DNA of 33,125 nt from Bacteroidota bacterium (GTDB lineage: Bacteria > Bacteroidota > Ignavibacteria > UBA10030 > UBA8401): assembly GCA_028749215.1 (NCBI GenBank), contig JAQUOA010000006.1, positions 1 through 33,125 on the forward strand, given 5' to 3'. The notes beneath the pieces are model-generated. The model searched no databases, was not told where the DNA came from, and saw only the letters and a list, made by a program, of their open reading frames with translations. Made by a program: the position numbers and the translations under genes. The stretch's first letter is position 1. Every line of letters begins with the position of its first letter. Below, in pieces: positions 25,129 through 29,681 of the stretch.

Positions 25129-25199
25129 CCACAAATAAAAAATCCCGCAGAAGCGGGATTTTTTATTTTAACAACCTCCGGCAACCTTTTTTATGAGGG
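25129..25199. repeat. Direct repeat (right copy): terminator and end of the YeeE-rhodanese gene
   Basis: It is homologous to 21961-22035. This copy includes the real stop codon and last codons of the transporter gene, so it is probably the original and the left copy the duplicate. Confidence 0.8.
25134..25167 (-). terminator. Terminator of the sulfur-oxyanion operon
   Basis: AATAAAAAATCCCGC pairs with GCGGGATTTTTTATT around an AGAA loop. It starts directly at the stop codon of the YeeE-rhodanese gene (25168), the last gene of the minus-strand operon. Confidence 0.88.
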
Positions 25200-26361
25200 C
25201 GGCAGGTTTGGCAGGTTTATTTTTCGACTCTTTAATGAGCAATGCTATTGCTCCGGATGCTTTAGAGCGGAATCTATCTGTGTCGATTTCTTCTCTAGTT
25301 GAAATAGTACCTAGTTTGGTGTACTTGAGAATTGATGCGGTAAATTCGGCCAGCCCCCCCTTTAAAACGCAGAGATTTTCATATCCGATTTCCTGTGCAA
25401 GGAGAGCGGCAATCTTTTCAGAATGTTCGTCAGCGGCGATGAATACTTTCTTTCGATGTTTCTGTCCGAGAATCTCAGTGAACTCTTTTTGAAAAAGCTG
25501 TCCGGTCTTGATATTGATTGCCCCTGGAAGCGATGCACTGTCAAATTCTTTTCCATCGCGCACATCAACAATTTGCAAACGATGATCGCCGTCCAAAATT
25601 CGGAATGCCAATTCATCGGATGTCATTGTTTGCACAGAATGCGTTTGGACAAAATTTTCGTCGCTTACTTTACCGACGAGCCGTTCTTTTCGATCCGGCA
25701 AGAAGAGAAGGACCACACCAAGAAGAATTATGCCTGTACCTGCAAGGCGATGTGAATGCGGATGAAAATCTTTTGCAGGACCTTCCGCATTTACTTTTCG
25801 CTCAATTTTTGTTGTCATAATAAAAGTGACGACGGCAACGACTATCAACAGCAAGGCAAACACACCTTGAGACATACCAAGGGAATTAAAGATACGGATG
25901 TTGCCGAGAAAGCTTGCCATGTAGATGTTTTCAAACATCGGATACCCTTCGGCAAAAAGGAAGACGCCGATCAATCCGCCGCCGACGAAAAACATGGCGT
26001 CAATTTTTCCAATCGCCGCGCCGCATACGCTGGTGCCGGGGCAGTATCCGCCGATGATAAATCCAAATCCCATAATCACTCCGCCGAGAATCGCTCCTTC
26101 AAGGTACGTGGGATTGATATAAATAAAATCCGTGTCAAGCCAGCCGATATATCCTAAAATGATAACGCCGCTCATGGCGGTAACGCCGGCAGTGAAGAAG
26201 ACACGGATTACGGTGAAATCATATCCGTAAAACACGCCGGCAAGTTTTTTTGATGAAGAAAATCCTGCCTGCTCAAGAACGAATCCGAAGGCGATGCCGA
26301 TGAGCAGTGCAACGATGAGATTCAATTCATCGCTGATAAGATCGGGAACTAAAGGGAACAT
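25168..26361 (-). CDS. YeeE/YedE-type sulfur transporter fused to a rhodanese domain lacking its cysteine
   Basis: The protein has 397 residues; GAGG lies five bases before the ATG. Residues 1-220 are membrane spans of the YeeE/YedE family, with the conserved GGYCPGTSVCG motif (Cys107 and Cys113) near which thiosulfate is passed in characterised YeeE. Residues about 245-345 form a rhodanese fold (LQIVDVRDGKEFDSASLPGA), but where active enzymes have Cys in the V-x-Y-C-x-x-G-x-R-S loop this protein reads VFIAADEHSEK, so sulfurtransferase activity is unlikely. A Lys-rich tail ends GGC, with Cys397 as last residue. Membership of the transporter half is clear; the substrate is inferred. It is last in an operon with a short YeeE partner, cytochrome b and an octaheme cytochrome. 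Confidence 0.9.
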   Translation of the reverse strand: MFPLVPDLISDELNLIVALLIGIAFGFVLEQAGFSSSKKLAGVFYGYDFTVIRVFFTAGVTAMSGVIILGYIGWLDTDFIYINPTYLEGAILGGVIMGFGFIIGGYCPGTSVCGAAIGKIDAMFFVGGGLIGVFLFAEGYPMFENIYMASFLGNIRIFNSLGMSQGVFALLLIVVAVVTFIMTTKIERKVNAEGPAKDFHPHSHRLAGTGIILLGVVLLFLPDRKERLVGKVSDENFVQTHSVQTMTSDELAFRILDGDHRLQIVDVRDGKEFDSASLPGAINIKTGQLFQKEFTEILGQKHRKKVFIAADEHSEKIAALLAQEIGYENLCVLKGGLAEFTASILKYTKLGTISTREEIDTDRFRSKASGAIALLIKESKNKPAKPAALIKKVAGGC

Positions 26362-26395
26362 AAAAACCTCATTTCAAATTCAAAATTATATTTTG

Positions 26396-26451
26396 TGACC
26401 CCCTCTTTATCTTTCCCTCCCCTGCAAGGGGAGGGATTAAGGGTGGGGTCA
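26396..26451. repeat. Nested palindrome between the two YeeE genes
   Basis: The inner stem CCCTCCCCT/AGGGGAGGG with loop GCA lies inside outer complementary ends, TGACCCCC and GGTGGGGTCA. It is in the 95-bp gap between two co-directional operon genes. It could tune the level of the last gene or stabilise the upstream mRNA; C/G-rich palindromes of this form are also common intergenic repeats. Confidence 0.65.
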
Positions 26452-26456
26452 GTAAC

Positions 26457-26969
26457 TTATATCCACAACTTTCTAAAAAAGTACGCCACGGCATAACCGG
26501 TTCCGAAAATTGCCGCCATAGTGATAATGCCTCCGGTGGAAAGGACCGCCATTCCGCTTAACGCGGCTCCGCTGGTGCATCCCCGCGCAAATTGAGATCC
26601 GAGTCCAAACAGCGCGCCGCCGATTAACGCAAAACCGAGTCGTGCACTGTTTGAAATGCGAGGCCCGCGTTCTGTTTGAAATGTCAATCGGTCGGAGACG
26701 ACGCCAGAAAGAAATCCTCCGATAACGACGCCAAGAACTTCAAAGACAAGCCATGCTTTCAACGGATTATCATGGAGTGCTTTTAAATTTTCGCTGTAAA
26801 ATTTTGATGCTGCGGCATGCTGCGGGGCAACAGTGTGCACTGTCGCTACAACACTGCTTTTCAACGCACCGCTGGCTCCAAGCCCCCGTCCGGTAATGAC
26901 GATTGCTGCGAGCAGGGTGAGTCCGAGCAGGAAACCTGCCGCGTATGGATTCATGTAATGTGTTTTCAT
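26457..26969 (-). CDS. YeeE/YedE family transporter half
   Basis: The protein has 170 residues. GAGGAA lies about ten bases before the ATG, inside the end of the cytochrome b gene. Membrane spans occur near residues 10-26, 72-90, 112-126 and 145-163. The family motif FARGCTSGAALSGMAVLSTG carries Cys131, the counterpart of the cysteine that contacts the sulfur substrate in YeeE. In many genomes the family occurs as two short proteins that together equal one full-length transporter; here this half pairs with the longer rhodanese fusion downstream. It is likely to import thiosulfate or a related sulfur species. Confidence 0.88.
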   Translation of the reverse strand: MKTHYMNPYAAGFLLGLTLLAAIVITGRGLGASGALKSSVVATVHTVAPQHAAASKFYSENLKALHDNPLKAWLVFEVLGVVIGGFLSGVVSDRLTFQTERGPRISNSARLGFALIGGALFGLGSQFARGCTSGAALSGMAVLSTGGIITMAAIFGTGYAVAYFFRKLWI

Positions 26970-26982
26970 TTCTATTCGTTCC

Positions 26983-27630
26983 TCATTTTGTTCCGGCGGT
27001 GTGATGCACCTCTGCCGGCGTATGTTCGGTTTCTAATTCTTCAAAACCGGTGATCATGGCTTTAAGGTTTGATGTCACCGTTCGTCCGGTTGTGATTAAA
27101 TAAATATGTGCAATGACGAAAGCGGCAAGGAAAAATGCACCGACGGTGTGCACGACAGCTATCTTCTCCAAACTGTCGATGTTCAAACTTCCTATTCCTT
27201 GTTTTTGCGGATAGCGGTAAAACATATAGAGTAAACCGGATGCAACCATCACTGGAATGACAAGAATTTTAAGGGCGAGATACACGAGCTTTTGAATCGG
27301 ATTGAGTTTGCTGAGCACCGTTTTCTTTGTGGGATGCGGGGCATTGCGGAAAATTCCGCTGATGTAATATTCAAACTGGGCCCGCAGATGTTTACGCGTC
27401 GGTAAATATTGTTTCCATTCGTCCGTGGTAAAGTGCCAAAAAATTGCAAAGGCAATCAGCACCAGGAACATGATGGCGGCTGTGCGGTGGAATGTGACGG
27501 CCTGTTCAAATCCGAAGAAGGAGATCGCTCCGTGAATTTCAAATCCGGTGAGCGCAAGGAAAAGAATCAGCGCGGCTTGTGTCCAGTGCCAGAATCGTTC
27601 AAAGCGTTTATAGACAAATTCTTTTTTCAT
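26983..27630 (-). CDS. Cytochrome b (thiosulfate/formate-type membrane subunit), quinol oxidising
   Basis: The protein has 215 residues. The ATG at 27630 has AAGGG eight bases upstream; a longer reading to 27681 lies inside the cytochrome c gene. Four or five membrane spans carry histidines suited to two b hemes: His15 in RFWHW, His33, His48, His66 in FWHF, His161 and His175. A His/Thr-rich tail ends the protein. The pattern matches the cytochrome b561/NrfD-free b subunits of formate dehydrogenase and thiosulfate reductase. It starts four bases after the stop of the octaheme cytochrome, so it is the obvious electron donor from the quinol pool to that protein. Confidence 0.9.
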   Translation of the reverse strand: MKKEFVYKRFERFWHWTQAALILFLALTGFEIHGAISFFGFEQAVTFHRTAAIMFLVLIAFAIFWHFTTDEWKQYLPTRKHLRAQFEYYISGIFRNAPHPTKKTVLSKLNPIQKLVYLALKILVIPVMVASGLLYMFYRYPQKQGIGSLNIDSLEKIAVVHTVGAFFLAAFVIAHIYLITTGRTVTSNLKAMITGFEELETEHTPAEVHHTAGTK

Positions 27631-27634
27631 GGAG

Positions 27635-29203
27635 TCACCCTTTTCCGTTTTTACGTTTTGATACGATACGTAAAGATGCATGCCCGATTACACCGAGCAA
27701 TGTCAACACAATGGCACCCGTGCCAAGAAATTCAACAGAAGCATTGTAGTCTCTTCCAGGCATGTAGAAATCGCGGAGGTTTGCAAGACGGCTGTGATCG
27801 CGCGTATGGCAGCTATTGCACTGCAGCGAATTATTTTTTGGCGATACCATGTGGTTGATGGGCCAGTACATTTCAGTTTCTACAAACGTGTATTTTCCGC
27901 TGAAGGGAAGGTTCACCGATTCCATCCCTTTTTCCGATGCCTGCACCCAATCAAAATCTTTCCAGAACCCTCCTTCGCCTTTTTTTATGGCAAATGTTTT
28001 CGGCTGGATGATCATTTTATAGACGGGATCATAAATTTGTTTTGTGCGATGAATTTTTACCGGAATTATTTTTGCTTCGGGATCGGCGTAGCTGCCGTGA
28101 AGCGTATTCATTTGAATCGGTGCCGTCGGCGTAATTGTATCTCCCAGCAGATAGTGCGACGCTGTTCCGTTAAACCATACATAGTCCGGCTGAACGTTGC
28201 GCTTCCAAACAAATGATCCTTTAATTGACATGTATACTTCATCGCCGAGCGAATCTTTTATTTCAAATGGTTCGCCGTTTTTTAATTGCCCCGCGGTCGA
28301 CCAATCCCATCGCATTTTTGTTGAATTGACTTTGGCGTATTCCGGAATGTGGCATGTTTGGCAGGCAACTTTTAAAGTATGCTCGTTAAGCACGTCGCTC
28401 TTATGAGGAGTTTCGGTGTGGCATTGTTCGCAGGTAGAACGATTACGATTCATCGATGACAGCGAGTACACTTTACCGAGCATCTGATGCTTTTCAGTTT
28501 TATGGCAGCTGATGCATTCCAGATTGACACCGTCGCTTGCCATGTGTACATCAACATCCCGCGTTGCATCGAACAACGTTTTTTCCAGATCGCCGTGCTT
28601 CACGTTGTTTCCGCCGCCGCCAAAGAAATGGCACGTTCCGCAATTTGCCTTCGTCGGCTTGCCGACATGCTGAGCCACATACGTCAGGTTCACCGATGGA
28701 TCGGGCATTCCTGCACCACCGGATTGTTTGGTGTACGTGTTGCTGTTGTCGTGACAGGCAAGGCAGTCAACATTGTTTGGATTATTGAAATCGAACGAAG
28801 GGCTGTTCCATCCATATCCGATGTGGCACTTATTGCAGCTTTGTTCGTTGGAAGAAATGCCGATACAAAAATTGTTCAGGATATTTTTTTTGCCGACGTA
28901 CCGGATGCCGCGCCCTTCAATGTATTCTTCGCGTTCCCAATTCCAATGTGACGACTTCATCACCTCGGTGTGGCGTTCGGTATGGCATTCATTGCAGGCA
29001 GCCGTTACATCCTGAGGACGTGAAAACTTTTTTTTCAGCTGGGAAAATTTTGTATGGTCAACAGACGGGGGCTGTTTCTTTTTTGTGAATTGTTCTTTTA
29101 AATCTGCTAATGGTGTCGGTTCAACGCTCTTCTTGACGATGCTTGTCAGAAACAGGATCGTCAACAGTCCCATGGTGATGAGTGGAATGATTATTCTTTT
29201 CAT
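27635..29203 (-). CDS. Octaheme cytochrome c, tetrathionate-reductase (OTR) family
   Basis: The protein has 522 residues from the ATG at 29203 (GGGA about nine bases before it). An N-terminal signal anchor (MKRIIIPLITMGLLTILFLT) is followed by eight CxxCH heme sites at about residues 70, 123, 147, 188, 230, 258, 281 and 462. The long gap between the seventh and eighth is the layout of Shewanella octaheme tetrathionate reductase, which reduces tetrathionate and also nitrite and hydroxylamine. A C-terminal membrane helix (VEFLGTGAIVLTLLGVIGHA) anchors it a second time. It acts in the periplasm and receives electrons from the adjacent cytochrome b. Its first 83 bases overlap the end of the MerR-type regulator gene in another frame. 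Confidence 0.92.
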   Translation of the reverse strand: MKRIIIPLITMGLLTILFLTSIVKKSVEPTPLADLKEQFTKKKQPPSVDHTKFSQLKKKFSRPQDVTAACNECHTERHTEVMKSSHWNWEREEYIEGRGIRYVGKKNILNNFCIGISSNEQSCNKCHIGYGWNSPSFDFNNPNNVDCLACHDNSNTYTKQSGGAGMPDPSVNLTYVAQHVGKPTKANCGTCHFFGGGGNNVKHGDLEKTLFDATRDVDVHMASDGVNLECISCHKTEKHQMLGKVYSLSSMNRNRSTCEQCHTETPHKSDVLNEHTLKVACQTCHIPEYAKVNSTKMRWDWSTAGQLKNGEPFEIKDSLGDEVYMSIKGSFVWKRNVQPDYVWFNGTASHYLLGDTITPTAPIQMNTLHGSYADPEAKIIPVKIHRTKQIYDPVYKMIIQPKTFAIKKGEGGFWKDFDWVQASEKGMESVNLPFSGKYTFVETEMYWPINHMVSPKNNSLQCNSCHTRDHSRLANLRDFYMPGRDYNASVEFLGTGAIVLTLLGVIGHASLRIVSKRKNGKG

Positions 29204-29681
29204 GATGATGGTCCCGCGCCGCTTCAACAGCGGTGTGGTCTTTCGTGTAACTCATTTTGATGATCTGTTCTTTAATATATCCGGTATGGCTTGCCAATTT
29301 ATACACTTTGCACACACGGCACTCCATGTCGCCGCACAGTGAATGTTCATGGTTGTACGTCCAACAACCGGCAGTCTGATTCTTGAACGCCGGGCATTTC
29401 TCCCGCTGTTCTTCAGGGCATTCCATGATGTTCCAGCAAGGAATCATTGAGTGAATTTTTTTCATTCCCCCGATACTGATTTTTTCAAGATTGATCGCTT
29501 TGCGGATACATTCGAGACGTTCAACATCGGCATCGGAATAGAGGCGTTGGTTGCCGTCGGTTTTGTAGGGAGCAAGAAGACCTTCGCTTTCGTACATGCG
29601 CAATGTCTGTGCGGAAACGCCAAGCATTCGCACCACGGTGCCGATTGAATACAGAGGAGTGTCGGGATTATGATTTTTCAT
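29121..29681 (-). CDS. MerR-family regulator with Cys-rich domain and His-rich tail
   Basis: The protein has 186 residues. The ATG at 29681 begins MKNHNPDTPLYSIG; a TTG at 29702 is an alternative, and neither has a strong ribosome site. Residues about 9-75 are the MerR winged helix (IGTVVRMLGVSAQTLRMYES, then EGLL and RLYSDADVERLECI). Residues 82-124 hold seven cysteines (CWNIMECPEEQREKCPAF, then GCW, LCGDMECRVCKVY) that could bind a metal, an Fe-S cluster or a sulfur species. Residues 157-170 are rich in His (DHHHEKNNHSTHHH). It is first in the operon, overlaps the cytochrome gene by 83 bases and is likely to control it in response to metal, redox state or sulfur compound; the signal is inferred. 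Confidence 0.88.
   Translation of the reverse strand: MKNHNPDTPLYSIGTVVRMLGVSAQTLRMYESEGLLAPYKTDGNQRLYSDADVERLECIRKAINLEKISIGGMKKIHSMIPCWNIMECPEEQREKCPAFKNQTAGCWTYNHEHSLCGDMECRVCKVYKLASHTGYIKEQIIKMSYTKDHTAVEAARDHHHEKNNHSTHHHGTVDDPVSDKHRQEER

Follow-up and report, generated by a model that had tools for sequence, protein, structure and literature searches.

The octaheme tetrathionate reductase (OTR) of Shewanella oneidensis (PDB 1sp3, family model TIGR04315) is a soluble, periplasmic cytochrome, and tetrathionate reductase activity is known for Shewanella and Beggiatoaceae OTRs (PMC6449678). TsuA of Spirochaeta thermophila imports thiosulfate with the help of a cytoplasmic thiol partner, TsuB/YeeD; its Cys91 and Cys293 are indispensable, and a channel of this kind is split over two proteins in PmpA/PmpB (Li et al. 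2024, PMC11582611). In the SoxYZ system, the Cys of the SoxY GGCGG terminus is an established sulfur-binding arm (PMC6067878). A gene cluster made up of a MerR regulator, psrABC, two DUF395 genes and a rhodanese occurs in 'Ca. Thermonerobacter', Melioribacter and Ignavibacterium; it was noted in passing in 2019 for 'Ca. Thermonerobacter' (PMC6338057), and the position of merR before psrABC is mentioned for Melioribacter (PMC5492636). Finally, sulfur disproportionators carry the YTD cluster (yedE, tusA, dsrE). Here we describe a five-gene locus on the minus strand of a 33,125-nucleotide stretch of a Bacteroidota genome of the Ignavibacteria (contig JAQUOA010000006.1, positions 1 to 33,125; hereafter the window), in which an OTR and a cytochrome b are encoded together with a split YeeE channel that ends in an inactive rhodanese domain and an invariant C-terminal Cys. 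We propose that its products form a sulfur-compound reductase in the membrane, which a thiol carrier on a tether links to a sulfur channel, a proposal whose chances we put at about even. The five genes, in the places given by the preliminary description of this DNA, and the features discussed below are as follows.

29121..29681, minus strand: MerR-family regulator with a C-terminal Cys-rich 'two-CW' domain (Pfam MerR_1, E 2e-18)
27635..29203, minus strand: OTR-family octaheme c-type cytochrome, presumably periplasmic, both ends anchored (TIGR04315, CxxCH count, homology to 1sp3)
28865..28867, minus strand: codon of Cys121 (NNFC), a non-heme Cys opposite Cys64 of 1sp3
28598..28600, minus strand: codon of Lys210 (VKHGD), counterpart of Lys153 of the Shewanella OTR (alignment with 1sp3)
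26983..27630, minus strand: cytochrome b561-type protein with four transmembrane (TM) helices, the probable quinol-oxidising membrane subunit (Ni_hydr_CYTB, E 7e-29)
26457..26969, minus strand: C-terminal half of a YeeE/TsuA transporter, PmpA-like (PF04143 positions 176-308)
26415..26435, minus strand: GC-rich palindrome between the YeeE halves (exact copies in the genome)
25168..26361, minus strand: N-terminal YeeE/TsuA half, PmpB-like (PF04143 positions 9-166), followed by an extra TM helix, a dead rhodanese (Rhodanese, E 2.8e-12) and a basic tail ending -GGC
25327..25629, minus strand: rhodanese-fold domain lacking the catalytic Cys (Ala309; Foldseek and catalytic column)
25171..25179, minus strand: C-terminal Gly-Gly-Cys, the proposed sulfur-carrying swinging arm
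25136..25161, minus strand: hairpin and then a T-run immediately beyond the final stop codon, probably the terminator of the operon (read from the sequence; a terminator scan found part of it)

Taken individually, OTR, YeeE halves and MerR protein each belong to a known kind. The window OTR shares with the Shewanella protein the eight CxxCH motifs, the VKHGD Lys and the NNFC Cys, but it is anchored at both ends, is followed by a cytochrome b and is linked to the split YeeE and the rhodanese arm. Similarly, the YeeE halves have the PF04143 fold, the matching Cys pair and the split seen in TsuA and PmpA/PmpB, whereas their thiol partner is predicted to lie in the periplasm and is fused to the N-terminal half. 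The likeness to SoxY is in the flexible Gly-Gly-Cys arm, here predicted to be periplasmic, and some relatives of the module end exactly in GGCG or GGCGG; unlike SoxY, the carrier proposed here has a rhodanese fold and is tethered in the membrane to a channel, and the operon contains no SoxY, SoxZ, SoxAX or SoxB (for SoxY and SoxZ, by Pfam and NCBIfam matches). The 'Ca. Thermonerobacter'-type cluster has the same half-YeeE pair, rhodanese and kind of MerR and is plainly the sister arrangement. It differs in that a molybdopterin reductase takes the place of OTR and cytochrome b, and the passages of the two papers that deal with it mention neither a C-terminal Cys arm nor the loss of the catalytic Cys. 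With YTD the locus shares a YeeE-type permease and a sulfur-carrier protein, but it lacks TusA and DsrE (by Pfam and NCBIfam matches) as well as the two conserved hypothetical genes of YTD. The preliminary description knew of no full account of the five-gene arrangement. For the OTR version, as for the terminal Cys arm, no description was found in the open-access full-text literature (subscription papers lay outside this search); the Psr-linked version is the one noted in 2019.

The rhodanese domain encoded by the last gene is indeed inactive, as had been suggested, with Ala309 in place of the catalytic Cys, and among 127 module rhodaneses just five have Cys in this column. In the AlphaFold2 (AF2) model, whose best Foldseek matches are rhodaneses, the predicted local confidence (pLDDT) of the domain is mostly 88-97; a helix (residues 356-380) leads to a tail (residues 381-397) with values of 51-67, so that the tail is modelled as flexible. 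This tail ends in Gly-Gly-Cys, which is unchanged in 46/46 homologues in an alignment with a mean column identity of 50%; mean conservation is 1.00 for the GGC, 0.43 for the preceding linker and 0.52 for the rhodanese domain. A Cys lies within four residues of the C-terminus in 123 of the 125 complete module rhodaneses, the two that lack it (L284, L107) looking truncated or frameshifted, compared with 0/13 rhodaneses from outside the module and 7/564 unrelated neighbouring genes. The residues around it vary, from GGCG, GGCGG, GGGCGG or GSCG in distant lineages to KKKKREGC in Psr-type modules. We also considered a ubiquitin-like thiocarboxylate carrier of the ThiS/MoaD type, which ends in -GG, and rejected it: the fold is that of a rhodanese, and the domain is predicted to be periplasmic, without ATP. 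At one locus (L306:2128-3415), two consecutive rhodaneses, each ending in -EGGC, stand behind a single Psr-type YeeE pair.

The side of the membrane on which this domain lies is predicted from charges and signal anchors. In the fused YeeE-rhodanese protein, an acidic N-terminus and a basic loop ahead of the final helix would, by the positive-inside rule, place the rhodanese outside, but the charge contrast around that helix is weak and the loop charges around TM6 are mixed. The homologues in which the rhodanese is a separate protein give stronger evidence: in 24/24, a single hydrophobic helix at the N-terminus follows a Lys or Arg. Because of this signal-anchor pattern, the rhodanese domain is predicted to lie outside the cytoplasm, on the same side as the OTR.

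The preliminary description counted two YeeE proteins. There are two genes, but their products are the halves of one transporter of the TsuA/PmpAB type rather than two transporters: they match complementary parts of Pfam Sulf_transp (PF04143), and in profile searches the first falls on the C-terminal half of TsuA and the second on its N-terminal half (E 3e-4). When the first half is aligned to the TsuA structures 8j4c/6leo, Cys131, which is invariant among its homologues, comes opposite Cys293 by count, and the second half has an invariant Cys107 at the position of Cys91. A complete two-half YeeE fold with equivalents of both cysteines is therefore spread over the two proteins. It belongs to the YeeE superfamily and is not a TsuA equivalog, as the score against the TsuA equivalog models was 41.5 bits against 400. 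A second YeeE pair in the genome (C180, L254), examined as a possible copy of the module, is a plain PmpAB-like pair without a rhodanese.

A gene-neighbourhood survey of OTR homologues showed that the YeeE-rhodanese stays with OTR across many phyla. In a set of 80 OTR loci, the order OTR, cytochrome b, YeeE, YeeE/rhodanese is kept in every one that has enough downstream DNA, which makes a chance arrangement untenable; these 80 are, however, the closest relatives, and the wider surveys carry more weight. The order spans records from Bacteroidota/Ignavibacteria, KSB1, Myxococcota, Elusimicrobia, Armatimonadota, Acidobacteriota and Planctomycetes, and the YeeE genes do not form a separate unit in relatives. 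Besides the genes of the module, only an upstream regulator recurs widely around OTR. A mobile or plasmid origin was rejected, as only five plasmid records carry an OTR, all of them distant (38-39% identity), with no YeeE in those of Photobacterium and Paracoccus; Pseudomonadota were covered through plasmid records only.

Starting from the YeeE half instead, 50 of 297 genomes of the phylum of the window were found to carry it, and 40 neighbourhoods were read. The partner was an OTR in 19 (with cytochrome b in 18) and a Psr/Phs-like molybdoenzyme in 17, whose score against the PhsA model, 532 bits, falls short of the cut-off (694). In the other four it was a secreted rhodanese resembling thiosulfate sulfurtransferase; no nitrogen-cycle partner was seen among the 40. 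The YeeE tree requires at least two switches of partner. The pair of half-YeeE proteins and the rhodanese are thus a portable module that alternates among sulfur enzymes, and the assignment of this module to sulfur is strong, because it goes with three unrelated enzymes that share only sulfur chemistry.

What the OTR itself contributes is suggested by its relatives. The window protein scores 593.8 bits against TIGR04315 (curated cut-off 375), has eight CxxCH motifs and hydrophobic helices at both ends (residues 12-30 and 496-514), and matches 1sp3 across 414 residues with E 1.1e-130. Counted along this alignment, Lys210 falls opposite Lys153, which we take from the 2004 structure paper to be the ligand of the active-site heme, and Cys121 opposite Cys64. 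Among 132 OTRs from many phyla, the Lys is conserved in at least 97% and the non-heme Cys in 132/132. The cytochrome b scores 102.6 bits against a PhsC-like model, under its cut-off. On these sequence grounds we regard the OTR as a putative S-S reductase. The Beggiatoaceae OTR reduces tetrathionate in vitro at 93 µmol/min/mg, faster than nitrite (PMC6449678), an acidobacterial otr is induced 36-fold by tetrathionate (PMC8528874), and in lucinid symbionts soxY-S3 adjoins otr (PMC11237559). It is these cases of activity and induction, the neighbourhood of otr and soxY, and the GGCGG arm of SoxY that led us to propose S-S cleavage by the OTR and a Cys-borne carrier.

We envisage that menaquinol would donate electrons to the cytochrome b561, which would hand them on to the OTR in the periplasm; there S-S bonds would be cleaved at the Lys-ligated heme, possibly with the participation of Cys121. 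Tetrathionate might be the substrate, or else a thiosulfonate or polysulfide formed from tetrathionate. Together the YeeE halves would make up a single TsuA-like channel that contains both of the essential Cys. Its N-terminal half would hold the dead rhodanese on the periplasmic side, and the flexible tail of this domain carries positive charge and has Gly-Gly-Cys at its end. At the reductase, the terminal thiol may take up a sulfur group, as Cys-S-S2O3-, Cys-S-SO3- or Cys-SSH, and the loaded arm could then swing across to the channel opening, where the recovered sulfur would be imported. Import is the most likely direction by analogy, since TsuA imports thiosulfate. Elsewhere, the same channel and arm would serve Psr/Phs reductases and secreted sulfurtransferase-like rhodaneses. 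The preliminary description had suggested reduction with recapture of the product; its sulfur reading stands, but it missed the split of the transporter, the predicted periplasmic location of the rhodanese and the invariant C-terminal Cys, and it is the Cys arm that turns the recapture idea into a specific relay mechanism. Beyond this, the module may represent a class of periplasmic sulfur carriers that is new, in which a rhodanese has shifted its thiol out of the active site and onto a C-terminal swinging arm, is tethered to a split YeeE and can be transferred among three unrelated sulfur enzymes; we advance this more tentatively, with chances somewhat short of even.

Since in vitro work on OTRs gave reduction of both tetrathionate and nitrite, their physiological substrate has been an open question, and a co-encoded, conserved sulfur channel with a carrier arm gives tangible grounds for assigning this large OTR branch to sulfur metabolism. 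The terminal Cys, Cys121 and Lys210 offer single-residue handles for checking such a role. If the arm does carry sulfur, it would be a SoxY-like solution built on a different fold and working with reductases, that is, a counterpart in reductive sulfur metabolism of what SoxYZ is in the oxidative one. It would also explain how many uncultured Ignavibacteria, Bacteroidota and Acidobacteriota of sediments and groundwater retain sulfur that is set free or bound in the periplasm and take it through the membrane.

Several observations weigh against this proposal. Caldithrix abyssi, which has an OTR gene, does not grow on tetrathionate (PMC5317091), and in M. roseus an arsenate reductase has been proposed as the product of the Psr locus upstream of such a module (PMC5492636). 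OTR and cytochrome b occur without YeeE or the arm in Photobacterium, Paracoccus and many Acidobacteriota, which makes the arm an addition to OTR that its chemistry does not need. The direction of import is weakened by the absence of the usual cytoplasmic acceptor of YeeE-imported sulfur, a TusA-domain protein: the operon has no TsuB/TusA partner, and a PF01206 search of the 96.7%-complete genome gave no match.

The last point bears directly on a serious rival to import, namely feeding of the reductase. The rhodanese-like Sud of Wolinella supplies its polysulfide reductase, and the arm described here might likewise gather sulfane sulfur or thiosulfonate from the periplasm or the channel for its reductase, with YeeE serving as an anchor for the arm or as an exporter of sulfur. 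Respiratory reductases are the partners of the module in 36/40 neighbourhoods, and the solved structures that the rhodanese profile matches include Sud (1qxn, 'sulfide dehydrogenase'; E 0.006), which agrees with such a role, as does the missing TusA-domain acceptor. However, a mere anchor would not need the two channel Cys on which transport by TsuA depends, and both are conserved, while in four loci the module is paired with a secreted sulfurtransferase and no reductase. We judge reductase feeding less likely than import, which stays our first choice.

It could also be argued that the OTR is a nitrite or hydroxylamine reductase with which an assimilatory YeeE-rhodanese accessory happens to be co-transcribed. 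The Shewanella enzyme does reduce nitrite and hydroxylamine in vitro, according to two papers that cite this work (Atkinson 2007, via PMC4911364 and PMC6449678), and OTR-cytochrome b exists also without any sulfur gene. On the other hand, the YeeE-rhodanese set is a fixed neighbour of OTR in many phyla, the other partners of the set are all sulfur enzymes, and no nitrogen gene recurs within 10 kb of the OTR loci, so that a nitrogen role appears improbable. In the genome of the window, NrfA gave one weak partial match (29 bits).

Sulfur signalling would be another function for the YeeE pair and its arm, which might relay a signal inwards to the Cys-rich MerR without any bulk transport of sulfur; SoxT1B, a YeeE-like protein, is such a signal unit for SoxR (PMC11582611). 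In fact, MerR proteins with the two-CW domain precede OTR-type and Psr-type modules alike (18/19 of those upstream of Psr-type modules match). Yet the regulator is exchangeable, being a MerR in 22 OTR loci and MarR-like in 19, and many OTR-type operons with a MarR-like gene, or with no adjacent MerR, still keep the module and the GGC tail; we hold out little hope for a purely signalling role. The five genes are not a fixed unit: the order from OTR to YeeE/rhodanese recurs, but MerR is present in a subset and OTR-cytochrome b is also found without YeeE. That the terminal Cys is a metal or heme ligand or forms a structural disulfide is very improbable, for although the tail would share its side of the membrane with eight c-type hemes, the Cys is kept also beside Psr, a molybdenum and iron-sulfur enzyme, and beside the secreted sulfurtransferase, and neither the rhodanese domain nor the linker contains a second conserved Cys with which to form a disulfide.

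The MerR protein is likely a redox or sulfur sensor. Eight C-terminal Cys columns, in the pattern CW-C-C-CW-C-CxxC, are near-invariant in 29 relatives, and no Pfam or NCBIfam model matches this two-CW domain. In the window protein the last of these Cys is replaced by Thr140, and a His-rich tail overlaps the start of the OTR gene.

Variants of the OTR operon were also encountered. In a larger branch, from other phyla, a further cytochrome with seven hemes and a length of about 750 residues is encoded beside OTR and cytochrome b (L160, L163, L165, L167-L170; L156, L157, L237-L239, L247); this branch keeps the YeeE-rhodanese-Cys set with a GGCG or GSCG tail. At L286:5540-8742, a divergent unit of OTR, YeeE half and YeeE/rhodanese (tail ...GGLCS), with no cytochrome b, is followed by an eight-heme protein. 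An acidobacterial locus (L225) on a long branch, the placement of which is unsure, has OTR and YeeE/rhodanese with neither a GGC tail nor a cytochrome b, and a locus from the same order as the window organism (L250) has an OTR without cytochrome b or YeeE. Other OTR domains lie within long proteins, about 1,080-1,130 residues, whose genes have neither YeeE nor cytochrome b beside them (L175, L232, L233, L241, L246).

Gene overlaps, short gaps, and the hairpin with its T-run after the last stop codon would fit a single transcription unit of the five genes that ends before a histidine kinase gene. A promoter scan gave fewer matches than shuffled sequence does and was hence uninformative. The kinase, a hybrid protein with PAS and receiver domains (25134-22108), lies directly downstream but outside the unit; it was rejected as a member, given the intervening hairpin and T-run and its failure to recur beside OTR. 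Within the unit, the 95-bp gap that separates the YeeE halves contains a 21-bp GC-rich palindrome, CCCTCCCCTTGCAGGGGAGGG, at 26415-26435, which has no T-run and is not a clear terminator. It looks like an inserted repeat, because most relatives do not have a long gap at this place; exactly three exact copies of it are present genome-wide.

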